Source of the DNA: a virus
DNA length: 21,449 nucleotides
Direction: 5' to 3' (one strand)
Virus record (IMG/VR): IMGVR_UViG_3300009705_000156
Location: 1-21,449 of that record
Under the pieces are notes generated by a model. That model did not search any database. It saw only the letters and a list, made by a program, of their open reading frames with translations, and was not told the DNA's origin. Numbering within the stretch: the first letter of the stretch is position 1; the number at the start of each line of letters is the position of its first letter. A program made the translations under genes and the position numbers. Shown here piece after piece: positions 9,011 to 21,449 of the stretch.

Positions 9011-9286
9011 ATGAGAAATATCATTGAACGATTCGACAGCATTTGCAAAAAAGCAGACGCAGTTAACAAGCAGTTAAAATTAACTGATAAGTCTTCTGGA
9101 TACGGACCTCGTTTCCAAAAGATGATGTCGAAAAAACAGAATCGTCTACATTCCGTAGGCATTTACGATTACCATACTAAGGGTTATGTATTGTTTGAGA
9201 TGGTTAACCTTGTAGGTCAGAAGGGCAAAGTACCACAGGAATTCTATGATATGGAATCTATGCTCAAGAATGCCGCAACCGCCTAA
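9011..9286 (+). CDS. Hypothetical small basic phage protein, 91 aa
   Basis: I do not recognise this protein. It begins MRNIIERFDS, is Lys-rich in its first half (KKADAVNKQLK, FQKMMSKKQNR), has a more hydrophobic stretch GYVLFEMVNLVG near residues 57-68 and no membrane segment or signal peptide. An AGGAA ribosome binding site lies 6-7 bases before the ATG. It is the first gene behind the 8933 promoter, so it is probably an early protein; its end overlaps the start of the hydrolase gene by 41 bases. Size, charge and position fit a small host-interaction or nucleic-acid-binding protein, but that is only inference from context. Confidence 0.8.
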   Translation: MRNIIERFDSICKKADAVNKQLKLTDKSSGYGPRFQKMMSKKQNRLHSVGIYDYHTKGYVLFEMVNLVGQKGKVPQEFYDMESMLKNAATA

Positions 9287-9896
9287 TAAAAATATTGTTT
9301 ATATACATGGTAGTGGCGCCTCCACGTTAAGTTTTAACTTTTTACAAATATTCTTGCCAGAACATAACGTACTTTATATAGAGTACGATACGCAAGAGCT
9401 ACCAGAAACAGTAATAACTCGCATCAAAATGCAAATACTTGATGAGTTTGGGCATGACCCATTCTCTGTAATAGCACACAGCTACGGGTGTTTGCTAGGA
9501 TTAAAAGCGGTACAGGCATTTGCTAACTGTGATGTATTTTTAGCCATGAGTGCCCCATGGGGTGGCAGTAGAACAGCAAAGTGGTTATCGTATGCATTCA
9601 GACATAGTAAACTTTTTACAGCACTAAATCCAAAGAGTGCGTTTATCACTGCGTTACAAACTGTAAACAACGATTTTAAGATAATTAATATAGTAACAAC
9701 AGGAACTAGAGGAGCCGGAAATGCTCTTGCTGGTATGGGCGAATCTAACGATGGAACTCTAACTGTTAGAACACAGAAATCTGTTCCTAACAATTTTAAT
9801 AATCTGAAACAGATTGAAACAGGTACTAGTCACAACGAAGTGCTAGTTAATTTTGAAACGGTTGAAATTATAAAAAGGGAGATTTTTTGTGAATAA
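9246..9896 (+). CDS. Alpha/beta hydrolase, probable lipase or esterase
   Basis: A 216-residue protein with all core features of an alpha/beta hydrolase. IVYIHGSGAS (residues 17-26) is the oxyanion-hole strand and loop, and IAHSYGCLLG (76-85) is the nucleophile elbow with Ser79. SNDGTLTV (167-174) places the acidic residue at Asp169, and GTSHNEVL (193-200) places the histidine at His196. Hydrolases with HSYG and NDG...V resemble PGAP1-type or lipase-like esterases acting on ester or thioester bonds; the substrate cannot be told. No signal peptide or transmembrane segment is visible, so it would act in the cytoplasm or in lysis/virion after release. The start at 9246 has AGGA 5 bases upstream; an in-frame ATG at 9270 lacks a good site but would remove most of the 41-base overlap with the preceding gene. 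The Ser-Asp-His set appears complete, so it is probably active. Confidence 0.88.
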   Translation: MIWNLCSRMPQPPNKNIVYIHGSGASTLSFNFLQIFLPEHNVLYIEYDTQELPETVITRIKMQILDEFGHDPFSVIAHSYGCLLGLKAVQAFANCDVFLAMSAPWGGSRTAKWLSYAFRHSKLFTALNPKSAFITALQTVNNDFKIINIVTTGTRGAGNALAGMGESNDGTLTVRTQKSVPNNFNNLKQIETGTSHNEVLVNFETVEIIKREIFCE

Positions 9897-10101: not shown

Positions 10102-11646
10102 CTATTTAACTGGCTTGTCTTTATCCACATGTCCTATGTAAGGCTCTCGAGTCAGCAATATATCTATAATACTAGTAACAGTATCTTGATCACCTTCTCT
10201 CTTGCCCTCAGTAGTTAACGGATTATCTTCGCTAGTATCTTGTAAGTCATATTCCCACCCTGGGGTTTCTATGGGCTGGTCTTCATGATCTACTAATGGG
10301 ATAGCTACCGCGGTTTTACTGTTCTCTGCCTGTGTTGCACTACCACCATCATTGAGATGTACTGTACTGCCCACTACGTTTGTTTTACCACCTGCTTGTA
10401 TGTTTGTATCGCCACCTGACTTAATATGCTGAGTGTCAGACGCTGTACTAAACATGTTAGATTTAGCGTTTAAATGCATGTCTGTACCTGCTGTTGCAAG
10501 TAGCGAATTTCTAGCAGTTAAATGCATACTGCCTTTGTCGTCTACTTCTAGCACAAAGTCTTTCATAACTTTCATACTAGCTTCTGCACCAGCATTAATA
10601 TTGAGTACGCCACGTTGATTGCCGTCCTCGTCTTGTTGTTCGTGTGCTTCGCCGTAAACACCTGCATTAATATTTACAGATGTGTTGCCTTCTAAATTTA
10701 AATTTTTGTCTGCACGAATATTAATATTGCCTTTAGCTCTATACGAAATATCTTTTTCACTGTATATTTGTATGTCACCATCGCCACTCATCTCTACCCA
10801 CGCATTACCTTTTGCGTTTATTATATAAATTAGACCGTTAGTGTCGTCCATTAATACTTGGTTGCCACCTGCTGTTCTAATTCTTATGTTCTTACTTTCA
10901 CCATTAATGTTACCATCGTCCATCACAAAACTGTGCCCACCTGTTCTGTGTGTGCCGTCTTTTTTACCTGTAGTTAAATTTACATCTTCTGCACCGGGAG
11001 TAGATATACCAAATACTGCACTAGGCGATTCCCTTCTTGCACTAGATGTCGATAAGCCTCTGAGCTTGTCATTAATCAATCCTTGGTCAAGAATAGGTTT
11101 TGTTATATATGGATTAACTGGTCGTGTAGCATTAACGCCGTGATTTATCTCGTCTGTCTGTCTATTAATTTCTGCTACTGGCAGTTTTTGGTCTGTGCCG
11201 AACGTTGTGCCTGCGGCATTTCCAGGTACCATGTTAGCCATTTGATCTGGTAGTAAACACCCTAGTACAAATGGTAATTTAGATTTGCCGTCTGCAAAAC
11301 ATACTAATACCCAGTTACCTACATCCGGCGGTACCATCCACATGCCATATGTTTTTTGTGTCTCAACATACGATGCTAAATTATCTCCAATTCTATTAGA
11401 CGGTGTACTTCCGCCAAACGGAGTACTCCAAAATGCATTAACCCAATTGCTTGGGTTGTCTCTGTCTTTGCCTAATGCCGGAATATATACTGTTAGTCTG
11501 CCACTGTTGGTATCGTCTTTAGGTCTAACAATAACTTCGCCTAAGTAAACACCAAAATCTAAATCAGCATTTTTAGTCATTTCGCTAGTGGGGTTATTTC
11601 TACTAACCTTAAATTTATCTGCTTTATAGTTTCCGCGTAAACTCAT
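10102..11646 (-). CDS. 5: Baseplate hub / spike protein gp5, without lysozyme domain
   Basis: T4 gp5-family hub protein forming the membrane-piercing needle at the tail tip. Residues 31-135 are the OB-fold: VYLGEVIVRPKDD, GRLTVYIPALG, then MWMVPPDVGNWVLVCFADG and FVLGCL. From about residue 237 to 430 runs a triple-stranded beta-helix typical of gp5/VgrG spikes, with repeating short strands such as GNQVLMDD, GNAWVEMSGDGDIQIY, GNINIRADKNLNLEGN and HIKSGGDTNIQAGGKTNV. At 514 residues it is near T4 gp5 (575), but the region between the OB-fold and helix (about 140-235) shows nothing like the T4 phage lysozyme domain with its catalytic Glu. It is the last gene of the right-hand late operon and its start shares one base with the stop of the 823-aa gene (TAATG). 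Confidence 0.9.
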   Translation of the reverse strand: MSLRGNYKADKFKVSRNNPTSEMTKNADLDFGVYLGEVIVRPKDDTNSGRLTVYIPALGKDRDNPSNWVNAFWSTPFGGSTPSNRIGDNLASYVETQKTYGMWMVPPDVGNWVLVCFADGKSKLPFVLGCLLPDQMANMVPGNAAGTTFGTDQKLPVAEINRQTDEINHGVNATRPVNPYITKPILDQGLINDKLRGLSTSSARRESPSAVFGISTPGAEDVNLTTGKKDGTHRTGGHSFVMDDGNINGESKNIRIRTAGGNQVLMDDTNGLIYIINAKGNAWVEMSGDGDIQIYSEKDISYRAKGNINIRADKNLNLEGNTSVNINAGVYGEAHEQQDEDGNQRGVLNINAGAEASMKVMKDFVLEVDDKGSMHLTARNSLLATAGTDMHLNAKSNMFSTASDTQHIKSGGDTNIQAGGKTNVVGSTVHLNDGGSATQAENSKTAVAIPLVDHEDQPIETPGWEYDLQDTSEDNPLTTEGKREGDQDTVTSIIDILLTREPYIGHVDKDKPVK

Positions 11647-15282: not shown

Positions 15283-16155
15283 ATGGCTCACATTACACCA
15301 AAAAAGGTTAATTATTTAAACAATAAGGACATACTGAAGCAAATTCATGCTAGTAAGATGTCGTATTGTTATGTGCAAGATGACAAGTACATGAATCCAG
15401 ATATCATTTTAATGGATGTCAACGAAATTAATAAGACTACTATTAAACAGGCCCAAGAGAATAGGTCAGCAAAATTACAATCAGATGGCTACCAAACTGC
15501 TATGAAAGACGGTGGTTGGGATAAGAAGCCCAAGCAGAAAGACTTTGCAGTTGATCCGCTTTCTCTTGCAGTAGATGAACTAGTGTTTAGAGTTATGGGA
15601 TATGACCATATTCCAGATGAACCAGGTAGAAAGAAAACTACTAAGACGGTTGCTGATACAAAAGCAAAACTAAATTTCCCTCCATTCAAACATTATATTG
15701 TGGATGGTGCTGGAACTAATCCTAGGGAAGTTGCTAGAAGTCATTGGGTAGGTGGACTACACAATGGTCACTTTAGTGTCGACCACGGAAAAATTACAAA
15801 TACCCTCGGTAGCATGTTTATGAAACTTGTAGAGCGTTATAGTCAAAGAGGTAACTGGCGAGGTTACACTTATGTTGACGAAATGCGTGGACAAGCATTA
15901 GTACAACTTGCTCAAATAGGATTGCAGTTTAACGAAGCAAAATCAGACAATCCATTTGCATATTATACCGCTACAGTTAATAACAGTTTCACTAGAGTTT
16001 TAAACTTAGAGAAACGTAATCAATCAATTAGAGACGACATCTTAATCGAGTCCGGTCATTTACCAAGTTACGGTAGACAGATTGCATACGAGAATGAGAT
16101 GAAAGAACTTCGTAAGATTGCAGAAACTGAAGTAGAAAATACATCAACTGAGTAA
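15283..16155 (+). CDS. 55: Late-transcription sigma factor gp55, long form
   Basis: Directs host RNA polymerase to phage late promoters. The C-terminal 110 residues match T4 gp55: KLVERYSQRGNWRGYTYVDE (181-200), MRGQALVQLAQIGLQF, NPFAYYTATVNNSFTRVL and EKRNQSIRDD (243-252), the sigma region 2-like helices that read the late -10 box. The N-terminus (VNYLNNKDILKQIHASK, then MSYCYVQDDKYMNPDIIL) is the conserved gp55 start. Between lies about 120 residues absent from T4 gp55 (185 residues), including LVFRVMGYDHIPDEPGRK and LNFPPFKHYIVDGAG (about 100-145). The total of 290 matches my memory of marine gp55. A clear hydrophobic-acidic sliding-clamp tail like that of T4 is not evident at the C-terminus. 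It heads the early operon and its own product would act on the motifs at 8873, 15174 and 20738. Confidence 0.93.
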   Translation: MAHITPKKVNYLNNKDILKQIHASKMSYCYVQDDKYMNPDIILMDVNEINKTTIKQAQENRSAKLQSDGYQTAMKDGGWDKKPKQKDFAVDPLSLAVDELVFRVMGYDHIPDEPGRKKTTKTVADTKAKLNFPPFKHYIVDGAGTNPREVARSHWVGGLHNGHFSVDHGKITNTLGSMFMKLVERYSQRGNWRGYTYVDEMRGQALVQLAQIGLQFNEAKSDNPFAYYTATVNNSFTRVLNLEKRNQSIRDDILIESGHLPSYGRQIAYENEMKELRKIAETEVENTSTE

Positions 16156-16164
16156 CAAACCACT

Positions 16165-17184
16165 ATGGCAAACCTTTTTGAAAGGGCCGCGTGTTTCACC
16201 GATATACATTACGGCTTAAAACAAAACAGTAGACAGCATTTAATAGATTGCGATAATTTTATAACGTGGTTTATTGAAGAAGCAAAAGCAAGGAATTGCG
16301 AGACTTGTATATTTCTAGGCGACTGGCATCATCATAGAGCAAGTATTAACATTGCTACTATGAACTCTACTATCAAAGACTTAAAGCGATTAAACGATGC
16401 ATTTGAAACGGTGTACTTTATCACCGGTAACCATGACTTGTTTTATAGAGAAAAGCGTGACTTAAACAGTATCGAGTTTGCTAGAGATATGTCTAACATT
16501 GTTATGGTAGATGACCACTTTCTACAAGATGATGTTGCGATTGTTCCATGGTTAATCGGAGACGAACACAAAGATGTTGCTAAAGTAAAATGCAAATATA
16601 TGTTCGGACATTTTGAGTTACCGTACTTTAAAATGAATGCTATGATTGAAATGCCGGATCACGGTGGTATTAGGGCAGACATGTTAAGCGGTCCAGAATA
16701 TGTATTCAGTGGTCACTTTCACAAACGTCAATATAAAGGCAACATACATTATATTGGTAATGCTTTCCCACATAACTATGCAGATGCACAAGATAATGAA
16801 CGTGGCGCAATGTTTTTAGAATGGGATGGCGAGCCACAATATGTTAATTGGGCAGAGTGTCCAAAGTATGTTACTATGGGTTTACGTCAGTTGCTTGAAG
16901 CACCGGAAAAATATTTAGACGCACAAACTCATGCAAGAGTTAAACTGGATGTAAACATCAGTTACGAAGAAGCAAACTTTATTCGTGAAACATTTGCAGA
17001 ACAATTTAAAGTCAGAGAGATACAATTACTTCCTGTTAAAGAAGAAGAGGAAGCCTTTGAAGGCGGTGAAATACAATTCGAAAGTGTTGACCAAATTGTT
17101 ATCCAGCAGTTAGAAACTATTGAGAGCAATCTAGTCGATACCGGCGAGCTTGTTAAAATTTACAGAAGTTTAGAGACTTTATAA
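16165..17184 (+). CDS. 47: Recombination nuclease subunit gp47 (Mre11/SbcD-like)
   Basis: A 339-residue metallophosphatase, the same length as T4 gp47. It pairs with gp46 to resect DNA ends for recombination-dependent replication. Catalytic metal ligands are all visible: D13 and H15 in FTDIHYG, D53 in FLGDWHHHR, N89-H90-D91 in ITGNHDLF, H149 in MFGHFELP, and H184 and H186 in FSGHFHKR. The C-terminal part (from about 245) would bind the gp46 coiled-coil base. It lies 9 bases after gp55 with a weak ribosome binding site, so it is probably co-translated, and its stop shares one base with the gp46 start (TAATG). Confidence 0.95.
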   Translation: MANLFERAACFTDIHYGLKQNSRQHLIDCDNFITWFIEEAKARNCETCIFLGDWHHHRASINIATMNSTIKDLKRLNDAFETVYFITGNHDLFYREKRDLNSIEFARDMSNIVMVDDHFLQDDVAIVPWLIGDEHKDVAKVKCKYMFGHFELPYFKMNAMIEMPDHGGIRADMLSGPEYVFSGHFHKRQYKGNIHYIGNAFPHNYADAQDNERGAMFLEWDGEPQYVNWAECPKYVTMGLRQLLEAPEKYLDAQTHARVKLDVNISYEEANFIRETFAEQFKVREIQLLPVKEEEEAFEGGEIQFESVDQIVIQQLETIESNLVDTGELVKIYRSLETL

Positions 17185-18953
17185 TGCTTACTATAAAAAA
17201 CGTAACAGCAAAAAACTTTATGAGTATTGGAAACAATACCCAAGCGGTTACATTTGATACCGAGCAACTAACACTAGTCCTAGGACACAATTTAGACCTG
17301 GGTGGCGATGGTAGTAGAAACGGTACAGGTAAAACAACAATCATTAATGCACTAAGTTATGGATTATACGGCGAAGCGTTAACAAACATTAGACGTGATA
17401 ACTTAATTAATAAAACAAATGCCAAAGGTATGATTATTACCGTTGACTTTGATATCAACGGAAAAGAATATCGTATTGAGCGTGGCAGACGTCCTAACAC
17501 TTTGAAGTTTTTTATAGATGGTGTAGAGAAAGCAGATGACGAACAGCAAGGCGATAGTAGAGAAACACAAAAAGAAATAGAACGTATTATTGGATTCCCT
17601 CATAATATGTTTAAGCATTTAATTGCTTTGAACACATACACTGAGCCGTTCCTTAGTATGAAAACTAATGACCAACGTGATATGATTGAGCAGTTATTAG
17701 GCATCACTGAGATTAGTGAAAAAGCAGAACTACTTAAAGAGCTACTTAAAAATACCAAAGACAGTATTAAAGATGAAGAGTCGAGAATACAAGCAGTACA
17801 GAATGCTAATAAGCGTATTGAAAAGAATATCGACGATATTGAATTGCGTAGGAAAGCCTGGGACAACCAGCATAGCGTAAAATTAAAGGACTTACAAGCA
17901 TCATTAGATGCATTAAGTGAAACTGATATTGATTTAGAACTAGATAAGCACAGGCAATTAGACGTTGTCCATAAGCAGTATTCAAAAATGCAAGGCTTAC
18001 AAAATGAGTTGAAGCAACTACAAACTAGTAGCAAACGTAATGCTAGTACACTTGTTAGTATACGAAGCGATATCGAGAAAGCAGAAACGGGTGTGTGCCC
18101 GGCGTGTGACCAGAGTACAGCACACTTAGATACTCACGAAACATATACAGCAGAGCTTAAAGAAAAAGAAGGAAAAGAATTATCGTATTCTACGGAATTA
18201 GAAGGCAAAATAGAGGTGTTAGAAAAAAGCCTAACAGACATCGGAGAACTGCCTGAAAGTCCTATTACTTTTTATAACAGCATGGAAGATGCTTTACAGC
18301 ATAGACATAATTTAGATACTATCACAGAACAACTTACTGAACGTAAAGAAGAAACTAATCCATATTCTGATCAAGTAGTTACACTTAGAGAAACTGGATT
18401 GGAAGAAGTTAGTTACGATGGCATTAACGAGTGGACTAGATTAAAAGATCATCAAGACTTTTTGTATAAACTATTAACAAGCAAAGACAGTTTTATAAGA
18501 AAGAAAATTATTGACCAGAACTTGCAATATTTAAATTACAGACTAAATTATTATTTAGAAAAATTAGGCTTGCCACACGATGTTAGATTTAACTCGGATT
18601 TGAGTGTAGACATCACAGAGTATGGCAGAGACCTAGACTTTGATAATTTAAGTAGAGGTGAACGTAACAGATTAATACTTGGCATGAGTTGGGCATTTAG
18701 AGATATTTATGAAAGTCTTAACCAACCAATGAACTTAATGTGTATCGATGAACTTGTTGACTCTGGCATGGACACAACTGGTGTCGAAGCGGCACTTGGC
18801 GTACTTAAAAAGATGGGGAGAGAATCTAAGAAAAATGTATTCTTAATTTCCCACAAAGAAGAACTGCAAGGAAGAGTTAGCAATGTATTGTATGTTGTAA
18901 AGGAAGGAGGGTTCACTTCTTACGCTAACGATATTGAAATATTAGAAACGTGA
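17184..18953 (+). CDS. 46: Recombination ATPase subunit gp46 (Rad50/SbcC-like)
   Basis: A 589-residue SMC-type ATPase (T4 gp46 is 560). Walker A is GSRNGTGKT at 43-51. A long coiled coil runs on both sides of a zinc hook, CPAC at 305-308. The ABC signature LSRGERNRL starts at 489, and Walker B with the catalytic Glu is CIDE at 520-523, followed by an ISHKEEL histidine-switch segment. All motifs for an active ATPase and for hook-mediated dimerisation are present. It overlaps gp47 by one base and the next gene by four (GTGA), so the three are tightly coupled. The product would load with gp47 at DNA ends. Confidence 0.96.
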   Translation: MLTIKNVTAKNFMSIGNNTQAVTFDTEQLTLVLGHNLDLGGDGSRNGTGKTTIINALSYGLYGEALTNIRRDNLINKTNAKGMIITVDFDINGKEYRIERGRRPNTLKFFIDGVEKADDEQQGDSRETQKEIERIIGFPHNMFKHLIALNTYTEPFLSMKTNDQRDMIEQLLGITEISEKAELLKELLKNTKDSIKDEESRIQAVQNANKRIEKNIDDIELRRKAWDNQHSVKLKDLQASLDALSETDIDLELDKHRQLDVVHKQYSKMQGLQNELKQLQTSSKRNASTLVSIRSDIEKAETGVCPACDQSTAHLDTHETYTAELKEKEGKELSYSTELEGKIEVLEKSLTDIGELPESPITFYNSMEDALQHRHNLDTITEQLTERKEETNPYSDQVVTLRETGLEEVSYDGINEWTRLKDHQDFLYKLLTSKDSFIRKKIIDQNLQYLNYRLNYYLEKLGLPHDVRFNSDLSVDITEYGRDLDFDNLSRGERNRLILGMSWAFRDIYESLNQPMNLMCIDELVDSGMDTTGVEAALGVLKKMGRESKKNVFLISHKEELQGRVSNVLYVVKEGGFTSYANDIEILET

Positions 18954-19744
18954 TTATAGACATACATTTAGGACATAATGCAGAACACACATTAAGTTAC
19001 GAATTGTACGACAATGATGTTGCAAGATTATTCCATAAAAGATTACATGAACAAGAGAACAAGGTTGTAAGTAGAACACAATTTTATAACTTTGGTGAGA
19101 CAGAAGAATCAGTACAAGCAGAACTGATGGCTGTTACAGAACGTTTACAAGAACTTGGCATTGTACAAGATGCTAGTTTACAAACTCTAAATAATTTACA
19201 CGAAAACTTTCCTAACGCTCACGATGAAAGTGAAGGCGAAGTTCGTGAATTATTACGAATGTTTAATTATCATATACATCATTTAGAAGATATAAGGCGT
19301 AAGCATTATAATGGTTCTAGATTTATTTTTGCATGTGAAGATGCCGGAACGGATATACCTGCAGAAGCACTAGATATGTTTACTGTGCGTAGGCGCTATG
19401 GCGAGTTGTATATGCATTACCCTCACGTGGGTAAACACTTGCTTGAGGTATTTGCAGACAATGATGTTAATGTTCCTGCGGATCATTTAATATGTACAAA
19501 CGTAATGCGTAATACTTTATGTGGATGGTTTGGAGAAGACAGATTTACCACAACTATAGAACAAGAAAATTTAATGATGTCGTTGTTTATGTTTTACAGA
19601 CAAATAATGCATAAAATTCCTTACCAATGGAAAGATCCTAAATTAGCAATTGGCTACTTGCCTTTAGGAATGTTAATTGACCTAGAACAAGACATTAATA
19701 TTATCAACGACAATAAGTACATTCATAGTTGGAGTTGTAGATGA
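18950..19744 (+). CDS. Hypothetical phage protein, 264 aa
   Basis: Not recognised. It starts at GTG overlapping the gp46 stop (GTGA) and ends with ATGA overlapping the next start, so it belongs to the recombination operon. The protein is acidic, mostly helical, with no membrane segment, signal peptide or catalytic motif. Visible stretches are IDIHLGHNAEHTLSYELYDN (2-21), a His-containing helix FNYHIHHLEDIRRKHY, a TVRRRYGELYMHYPHVGKHL block, and a C-terminal LPLGMLIDLEQD. The HIHH and HYPHVGKH clusters could bind metal but no fold is evident. Location suggests a role in DNA replication or repair, or a regulatory partner of gp46/47, as inference only. Confidence 0.82.
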   Translation: MIIDIHLGHNAEHTLSYELYDNDVARLFHKRLHEQENKVVSRTQFYNFGETEESVQAELMAVTERLQELGIVQDASLQTLNNLHENFPNAHDESEGEVRELLRMFNYHIHHLEDIRRKHYNGSRFIFACEDAGTDIPAEALDMFTVRRRYGELYMHYPHVGKHLLEVFADNDVNVPADHLICTNVMRNTLCGWFGEDRFTTTIEQENLMMSLFMFYRQIMHKIPYQWKDPKLAIGYLPLGMLIDLEQDINIINDNKYIHSWSCR

Positions 19745-20169
19745 GTGAAAAATGGACATATCAAGGCAAAACAGTAGACGAACTTCCTAACGATTGCGAA
19801 GCATTTGTCTACTTAATCACAAATACCACAAACGATAAAAAGTATGTAGGTAAAAAATTAGCAAAATTTAAAACAACAAAGCCTCCTTTAAAGGGTAAAA
19901 AGAATAAACGTCGCGGAACTAAAGAATCGGACTGGCGTACTTATTGGGGGAGTTCAGATCACCTAAATGCTGATGTTTTAGAGTTAGGAGAAGGCAAGTT
20001 TACAAGAGAAATAATTTGGTATTGCCCCAGTAGAGGTGTTGCAAGTTATCTCGAAGCCAGAGAACAATTTGAAAGACGAGTATTAGAAACAGATGATTAT
20101 TATAATGGTATTATCAATGTTAGAGTGGGCGGTTCAAAAATCTTACGAGAAGCGTTGAAAGATAGATAA
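19741..20169 (+). CDS. GIY-YIG nuclease-like protein
   Basis: A 142-residue protein resembling the small GIY-YIG-type endonucleases common in T4-like phages. FVYLITNTTNDKKYVGKK (22-39) corresponds to the two-strand GIY...YIG core, here VY and YVG. A basic loop (KGKKNKRRGTK, 51-61) with WRTYWGSS follows, and YLEAREQFERRV (103-114) supplies candidate catalytic Glu105 or Glu108. The ending NVRVGGSKI is also typical of this group. Arg and Tyr positions are plausible but the first motif is degenerate, so activity is uncertain. It may be a stand-alone homing-type nuclease or a recruited DNA-processing enzyme. It overlaps the 264-aa gene by four bases (ATGA) and ends the operon. Confidence 0.68.
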   Translation: MSEKWTYQGKTVDELPNDCEAFVYLITNTTNDKKYVGKKLAKFKTTKPPLKGKKNKRRGTKESDWRTYWGSSDHLNADVLELGEGKFTREIIWYCPSRGVASYLEAREQFERRVLETDDYYNGIINVRVGGSKILREALKDR

Positions 20170-20673: not shown

Positions 20674-20680
20674 AAAAAGC

Positions 20681-20700
20681 TAATTGTAATTAATTGTAAC
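20681..20700. repeat. Tandem 10-base repeat (TAATTGTAAY)
   Basis: TAATTGTAAT and TAATTGTAAC stand head to tail at 20681-20690 and 20691-20700, one helical turn apart, about 40 bases upstream of the late motif of the cytochrome gene. The one-turn phasing is compatible with cooperative protein binding, but AT-rich chance repeats are common. Confidence 0.6.
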
Positions 20701-20714
20701 AAACATATATAAAC

Positions 20715-20726
20715 AGTTCTAGAACT
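20715..20726. promoter_or_regulatory. 12-base perfect palindrome upstream of late motif
   Basis: AGTTCTAGAACT is a perfect inverted repeat ending 11 bases before the GATAAATA motif, where a -35 contact or activator would sit. It may be an operator half-site pair. Confidence 0.45.
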
Positions 20727-20737
20727 TATGTATATAA

Positions 20738-20745
20738 GATAAATA
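20738..20745 (+). promoter_or_regulatory. Candidate late promoter motif (GATAAATA) for the cytochrome gene
   Basis: Identical octamer to those before gp48 and gp25. With T4 geometry transcription would start near 20751, leaving a leader of about 76 bases before the ATG at 20827. Local sequence is very AT-rich (TATATAAGA occurs at 20731-20739 and again at 20749-20757), so a chance match has to be considered. Confidence 0.55.
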
Positions 20746-20756
20746 CTTTATATAAG

Positions 20757-20807
20757 AATATAACATAAGGTTATATTAGTATCAGAGCATTCGCTCGTAT
20801 TTGATAC
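20757..20807 (+). promoter_or_regulatory. Two hairpins in the cytochrome-gene leader
   Basis: First hairpin: AATATAAC (20757-20764) with GTTATATT (20770-20777), 8 bp, 5-base loop. Second: GTATCA (20779-20784) with TGATAC (20802-20807), enclosing GAGC-ATTC-GCTC (20785-20796) and a one-sided GTATT bulge. The ribosome binding site AAAGGA (20815-20820) follows 8 bases later and stays free. Such placement suits message stabilisation or translation control. Confidence 0.55.
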
Positions 20808-20826
20808 GCAATCCAAAGGAAAACAA

Positions 20827-21449
20827 ATGTACAAGTATATAGCCATGGCGCTTTTAGCCAGTGTGTCTGTATCATCATGGGCAACAGACTATGTTTCAGG
20901 CGTTGCTGATATTATTAATACCAATTGTGTAGTATGCCACAGAGCAGGAGGCATAGGACCAATGAGTTTTGAGACATACGAGCAAGTACGTCCATGGGCT
21001 CCATTAATATCACTTAAAGTAATGAAAAGAGAAATGCCACCTTATGCATACGATCACGGAATTGGCATACAAGACTTGCAAGGAGATTGGCGTCTGTCTC
21101 AAAAGGACATAGACACAATCGTGGAATGGGTAGACAACGGAAGCCTACGAGGCGACCCCGAAGTGGTAGTGCAGTTAGCACAACTACCTGATCCAGAAGC
21201 ATGGAGTTTTGAAGAAGACTTTGGCGTGCCGGACGCAATTATAGCCAGTGTTGCAATTGACATTCCAGCAAGTGGCAACGACTTGTGGCATAAACACAAT
21301 GTTCCAACAGGACTTAGTGAAGACCGATGTATTAAAGCAGTACAAGTTAAACCACGTGGTAATGCAAAGTCAGTAGTACACCATGCTAACAGCAGTATTA
21401 TAACTGAGGGAGGCAGACAAGGAATGTTAACTGAGTATGCAATGGGAAA
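20827..21449 (+). CDS. Exported c-type cytochrome / copper monooxygenase-like protein (partial)
   Basis: The frame is open from ATG 20827 to the window end (207 codons), with AAAGGA 6 bases upstream. Residues 1-19 form a signal peptide (short basic start, hydrophobic core, cleavage likely after SWA), so the product would enter the periplasm. CVVCH at 34-38 is a covalent haem c site, and Met70 in KREMPPY is the probable sixth haem ligand. GGIGPMSFETYEQVRPW and IVEWVDNG are typical of a one-haem domain that in bacteria precedes a copper type II, ascorbate-dependent (PHM-like) monooxygenase domain. The downstream DLWHKHNVPTGLSEDR and VVHHANSS, with a His pair as a possible copper ligand, fit the start of that domain. 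The gene looks GC-richer than the phage genes (for example about 57% in 21121-21180). It could be phage-borne metabolism or the edge of host DNA. Confidence 0.8.
   Translation, partial: MYKYIAMALLASVSVSSWATDYVSGVADIINTNCVVCHRAGGIGPMSFETYEQVRPWAPLISLKVMKREMPPYAYDHGIGIQDLQGDWRLSQKDIDTIVEWVDNGSLRGDPEVVVQLAQLPDPEAWSFEEDFGVPDAIIASVAIDIPASGNDLWHKHNVPTGLSEDRCIKAVQVKPRGNAKSVVHHANSSIITEGGRQGMLTEYAMG

Follow-up and report, generated by a model that had tools for sequence, protein, structure and literature searches.

The stretch of DNA analysed (the window) comprises the 21,449 bases of a linear IMG/VR virus record; its features given here from 15283 onwards are all on the plus strand. Database matches identify genes for a gp55-like late sigma factor (15283..16155), gp47-like (16165..17184) and gp46-like (17184..18953) recombination nuclease subunits, and a segE-like GIY-YIG endonuclease (19741..20169). 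At the right end lies the 5′ half of a gene, here termed PHM-A, for a cytochrome c-PHM-type copper monooxygenase (20827..21447), which starts with ATG and has a reading frame that is open at the window end after 207 of ~425 codons. The gene is incomplete solely because the contig stops there; on other viral contigs, most of the relatives that are full-length have ~417-440 residues. The initial annotation placed PHM-A some 650 bases from a gp55-47-46 operon; a gap of 657 bases is indeed present, but it follows the segE-like gene, not gp46, which ends at 18953 and is separated from the gap by two ORFs. Elsewhere in the window, an α/β-hydrolase-like ORF (9246-9896, below the Pfam cut-off) lies amid baseplate genes.

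The N terminus of the encoded protein is, by eye, signal-peptide-like (MYKYIAMALLASVSVSSWA, residues 1-19, 20827..20883), with a Lys, a hydrophobic core and SWA. It is followed by a CVVCH motif for c-type haem attachment (C34, C37 and H38; residues 34-38, 20926..20940), which is invariant in the superfamily, and by MPPY (21034..21045), the Met of which, M70, is a candidate second haem ligand that is invariant among 75 aligned superfamily members. Alignment to relatives identifies the leading two CuH ligands as a His-His pair (H185-H186, 21379..21384); the remaining copper ligands, H232, H312, H314 and M397, fall beyond the contig end and are present in the copy on viral contig L004 and in other relatives. 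The signal peptide, CVVCH, the Met in MPPY and the HH pair, all noted initially, are thus as described in the ORF translation. That they do not occur by chance follows from the 72-100% identity of the ORF to proteins of 80 other viral contigs (of at least 232 found), from the invariance of all ten residues (C34, C37, H38, M70, H185, H186, H232, H312, H314 and M397) in 32 of 32 full-length viral copies, and from dN/dS values of about 0.07-0.17 among phage PHM-A copies, values which also imply purifying selection.

Upstream of PHM-A, a motif match identifies a T4-late-promoter-like element (GATAAATA, 20738..20745). Of 43 viral copies of the PHM gene, 19 have the pattern [TG]ATAAATA no more than 110 bases upstream, compared with ~1 expected (two controls), though since the copies are related these are not 19 independent events. 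The gp55-like late sigma gene in the window is consistent with a late-type promoter before PHM-A, expression of which is predicted to be late in infection. A leader hairpin before the ribosome-binding site (20779..20807) is kept in L004, L008 and L026, i.e. in four copies with the window, and has changed once on both of its sides (GAGC/GCUC to GAGU/ACUC); neither Rfam families nor tRNAs were found in the segE-PHM gap.

The PHM/DBM copper monooxygenases are known from hormone and neurotransmitter synthesis and are best known from animals. Their six copper ligands (HH and H for CuH; HxH and M for CuM) are complete in the full-length viral copies. When the alignment was widened with bacterial relatives and paralogues, giving 75 sequences of 30% mean identity, the metal-type columns that survived were those of the haem and copper ligands; the chief departure is in bacterial redoxin-fused relatives, in which H312/H314 are replaced by R/N. 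A profile search of the PDB identified human DBM (E=2e-5) with all six copper ligands aligned; these we take to be H262, H263, H333, H412, H414 and M487 in human numbering (chain offset +39).

The protein modelled was the L004 copy; the 207 residues of the window protein are 87% identical to it. With close viral homologues only, AlphaFold2 gave a pLDDT of 45; with bacterial and B paralogues (see below) added, i.e. with the 75-sequence alignment, the pLDDT was 89 and the pTM 0.86. The predicted model has the double jelly-roll fold of PHM, and in a Foldseek search of the PDB the best 31 matches are all PHM or DBM (E 6e-11 to 3e-8), the PHM structures giving TM scores of 0.56-0.63 when normalised by target. 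A search of the BFVD viral folds returned low-TM noise and jelly-roll capsids only.

For PHM-A there is no match above cut-off to Pfam PF01082/PF03712, nor any PHM family in Pfam, NCBIfam or PHROGs, and the B paralogue matches PF03712 weakly and below cut-off (E 0.011). Since the direct Pfam matches of PHM-A are only weak ones to cytochrome c (Cytochrome_CBB3, E 9e-4, below cut-off), it is a PHM branch missed by curated models; sequence and model comparisons indicate that it is a distant branch of the PHM/DBM superfamily, outside the curated PF01082/PF03712 families. The invariant CxxCH and axial-type Met, together with the export signal, mark the N-terminal domain as a c-type cytochrome with predicted haem attachment. 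The initial proposal of a cytochrome c joined to a PHM-type copper monooxygenase is thus sustained by the DBM profile match, the Foldseek matches and the invariance of the ligands across a superfamily of ~30% identity. The extension to the right that it called for is supplied by full-length relatives on other contigs, which have a complete PHM-like domain with all six copper ligands.

PHM-A relatives are encoded on at least 232 IMG/VR viral contigs; in 50,697 cultured-phage genomes no match was found. The 32 full-length viral copies have a mean column identity of 82%. The order gp55-gp47-gp46-segE-PHM recurs in L002-L005 and L007, with L006 spanning the gp46-segE-PHM part, and also in L019, L021, L023 and L050, where gp55 is only ~66% identical. 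To the right of PHM-A in L004 are a baseplate hub gene (E 6e-24) and a weaker tape-measure-like match (E 4e-5), i.e. phage genes, not bacterial ones, and in L043 a pair of PHM genes is flanked by the gene for the major head protein on one side and tail tube genes on the other. Of 49 records with PHM, 13 have a gene for gp23 and 13 have one for gp20, gp23 falling into at least three score classes. L273, a close sibling that lacks PHM (gp46 95% identical), follows the window as far as 20673; its match to L004 stops at 9850 and resumes past PHM, at 11562. Because L273 matches both flanks, the PHM gene lies within a clean insertion of ~1.7 kb starting near 20674, the left part of which (20674..21449) is in the window. 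Among 38 comparable gp46 loci in which the sequence extends far enough downstream, only 5 have the gene, which is therefore accessory. PHM-A is thus carried by many uncultured T4-like phages, including that of the window.

Regarding its origin, a quick maximum-likelihood tree places 31 of the 32 viral rows, together with L083, in one group within the gammaproteobacterial family, with moderate supports (SH-aLRT 91-92) and with L082, L084, L085 and L086 as sister rows; L054 is a viral row outside the main group, on a long branch. The grouping fits a single old capture, after which the gene passed from one phage lineage to another. By sequence, the phage gene is of gammaproteobacterial origin, and, judged by gene ancestry, the phage hosts are probably Gammaproteobacteria. 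L083 (PBPT01000016.1) was considered as a bacterial sister ('Neomarinimicrobiota') and rejected; it is a phage contig, with a T4-like gp23 gene, binned in a GTDB MAG so labelled. L102 is suspect as bacterial, in that its Flavobacteriales-labelled GTDB MAG holds T4-like gp23 contigs.

The family is greatly expanded in marine Gammaproteobacteria, with 15-44 homologous matches, some partial, per host-type genome; genomes G050-G056 and L101, L124 and L141 have up to 44 cytochrome c-PHM profile matches per genome, in tandem arrays. Bacterial copies cluster with genes for MFS transporters, Gluconate_2-dh3 and GMC oxidoreductases, none of which is present in the phage stretches examined; these bacterial neighbours suggest an alcohol product that is then oxidised further. 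A redoxin domain (AhpC-TSA) is fused to some of the bacterial relatives. In such proteins, e.g. L098:2953-4719, R/N replace the CuM His pair while the CuH ligands and the Met are kept, so they are possible natural one-copper or redox-only variants.

The region 3′ of PHM-A was surveyed in the 64 viral loci with sufficient sequence beyond it. In 40 (e.g. L043:11224-12456) a second cytochrome c-PHM gene (B) comes directly after PHM-A; 20 have a lipoprotein gene, 2 have both and 6 neither. The B protein is of ~410 residues, has HHM, HMH and DEM motifs, and is ~49-53% identical to the bacterial redoxin-fused proteins, but lacks their redoxin domain. The lipoprotein, of 57-74 residues, has a conserved NxRxCRSxxxCxAxxLF motif, and its gene usually overlaps the PHM-A stop (e.g. 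L004:11268-11462; it is also just 3′ of PHM-A in L013, L022, L025, L026 and L042). One relative matches phrog_15849 weakly. The lipoprotein was not found in bacterial PHM loci, L083, a phage contig, excepted. When 66 lipoprotein loci were scanned separately, a PHM-like gene was adjacent in most, sometimes in the reverse order; in others the gene lies 3′ of segE without PHM, so its association with PHM is strong, but not absolute. This cassette anatomy, with B or a phage-only lipoprotein after PHM-A, is new relative to the first reading of the window. On a 230-kb phage contig, genes resembling those for IscU (by eye) and taurine dioxygenase lie directly 3′ of PHM-A (L016:11253-13006).

Host-derived, accessory, under selection and carried by bona fide phage genomes, PHM-A has the properties of an auxiliary metabolic gene (AMG). 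The reading that we favour, with a probability of roughly 0.7, is that it is an AMG of T4-like phages of marine bacteria, encoding an exported haem c-PHM monooxygenase that hydroxylates a small organic substrate. A putative oxidative role in the infected periplasm, as first proposed, is reasonable; how the metals are loaded, how electrons travel, what class of substrate is used, when the enzyme acts and what the phage gains are our inferences, as follows. Late in infection the protein would be exported, the host cytochrome c maturation machinery would attach haem at CxxCH, and periplasmic copper would load CuH (H185, H186, H232) and CuM (H312, H314, M397). The haem domain may then take up electrons supplied by the host respiratory chain and pass them to CuH, so replacing ascorbate, enabling CuM to activate O2 and hydroxylate a small organic molecule. 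The phage enzyme would supplement an activity encoded by many paralogues in host-type genomes, and GMC-type dehydrogenases encoded beside those paralogues could further oxidise the product. The precedent of pmoC-carrying phages, with their apparent late-infection activity, supports this explanation (PMC7674155).

A rival reading, in which bacterial DNA or a chimeric join has ended up on a phage contig, a concern raised in the initial annotation, might be suggested by the window stopping inside the gene and by the identity, of up to 81%, of the L004 copy to bacterial genes, which does indicate a bacterial origin at some time. The same join, however, recurs in independent samples and assemblies and in diverged phages, with phage genes on both sides; window 19752-21449 matches L004 continuously at 90%; and the GC3 of the phage PHM gene (0.33) is near that of gp46 (0.29) and far from that of a bacterial copy (0.63). 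This explanation, which is hardly credible, was rejected, and the recurring synteny, the gp23 and gp20 genes on the same contigs and the clean insertion argue that the gene is phage-borne.

PHM, the nearest solved fold, hydroxylates peptidyl-glycine, and it may be that the phage enzyme modifies exported peptides or surface proteins, e.g. so blocking superinfection or changing the envelope before lysis. The export targeting, the late-type promoter and the frequent overlap with the phage-only lipoprotein gene are in keeping with such a role, which we nonetheless consider unlikely, since the nearest relatives by sequence are bacterial proteins, multi-copy and encoded beside MFS and GMC dehydrogenase genes, suggesting catabolism. 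A redox or copper-handling protein, i.e. an electron sink or a scavenger of O2 or copper, shielding the infected periplasm with no defined hydroxylase substrate, could work with the one haem c and two predicted copper sites, and redox-only derivatives may exist among the redoxin-domain relatives without the CuM His pair; the retention by phage A and B of both copper sites whole, including the CuM Met, and the purifying selection on A make this improbable. It is also conceivable, though we regard it as tentative, that PHM-A together with a partner or membrane anchor, i.e. B or the CRSxxxC lipoprotein, forms a phage-specific periplasmic oxidation module across distant T4-like and jumbo lineages, with a purpose of its own (a new substrate or envelope modification) rather than simple host catabolism.

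If the small-substrate monooxygenase reading is correct, marine phages carry an entire copper enzyme that uses O2 and is coupled to haem c, the list of phage oxidative genes grows past photosynthesis genes and pmoC/amoC, and the PHM/DBM family is brought into phages. The work also points to an apparently uncharacterised bacterial family, the substrate of which could matter for marine carbon turnover, and offers for testing a small candidate partner lipoprotein found only in phages. The initial view that the two-domain type is not known as a phage auxiliary gene agrees with the open-access literature searched, in which no earlier report of phage PHM/DBM-type or haem c-PHM genes was found, though an unlisted one may exist.

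PHM is a cellular double jelly-roll protein (PMC8812541), and the phage protein resembles PHM/DBM in its predicted fold and in the order of its six copper ligands (HH, H, HxH, M). It differs from them in its low identity (~10-14%), in its phage/bacterial occurrence, and in having an N-terminal haem c domain instead of an external ascorbate donor, a donor role for this domain being presumed. The cytochrome c-PHM proteins of marine Gammaproteobacteria (Pseudohongiella, OM182 and other Pseudomonadales), with the same architecture, all ligands and 65-81% identity, are much closer and, on sequence grounds, are the direct source family of the phage gene. Whereas the bacterial genes are arrayed in many copies alongside MFS, redoxin-fused and GMC genes, the phages have only one or two PHM genes and the phage-only lipoprotein. 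The phage pmoC and viral amoC genes are likewise phage-borne, host-derived parts of a copper monooxygenase, with pmoC apparently most active late (PMC7674155). However, they encode membrane subunits of an unrelated multi-subunit enzyme, and PHM-A, which differs in fold and architecture from the membrane CuMMO subunit C, is predicted to encode a whole enzyme that stands alone and has a haem domain of its own.
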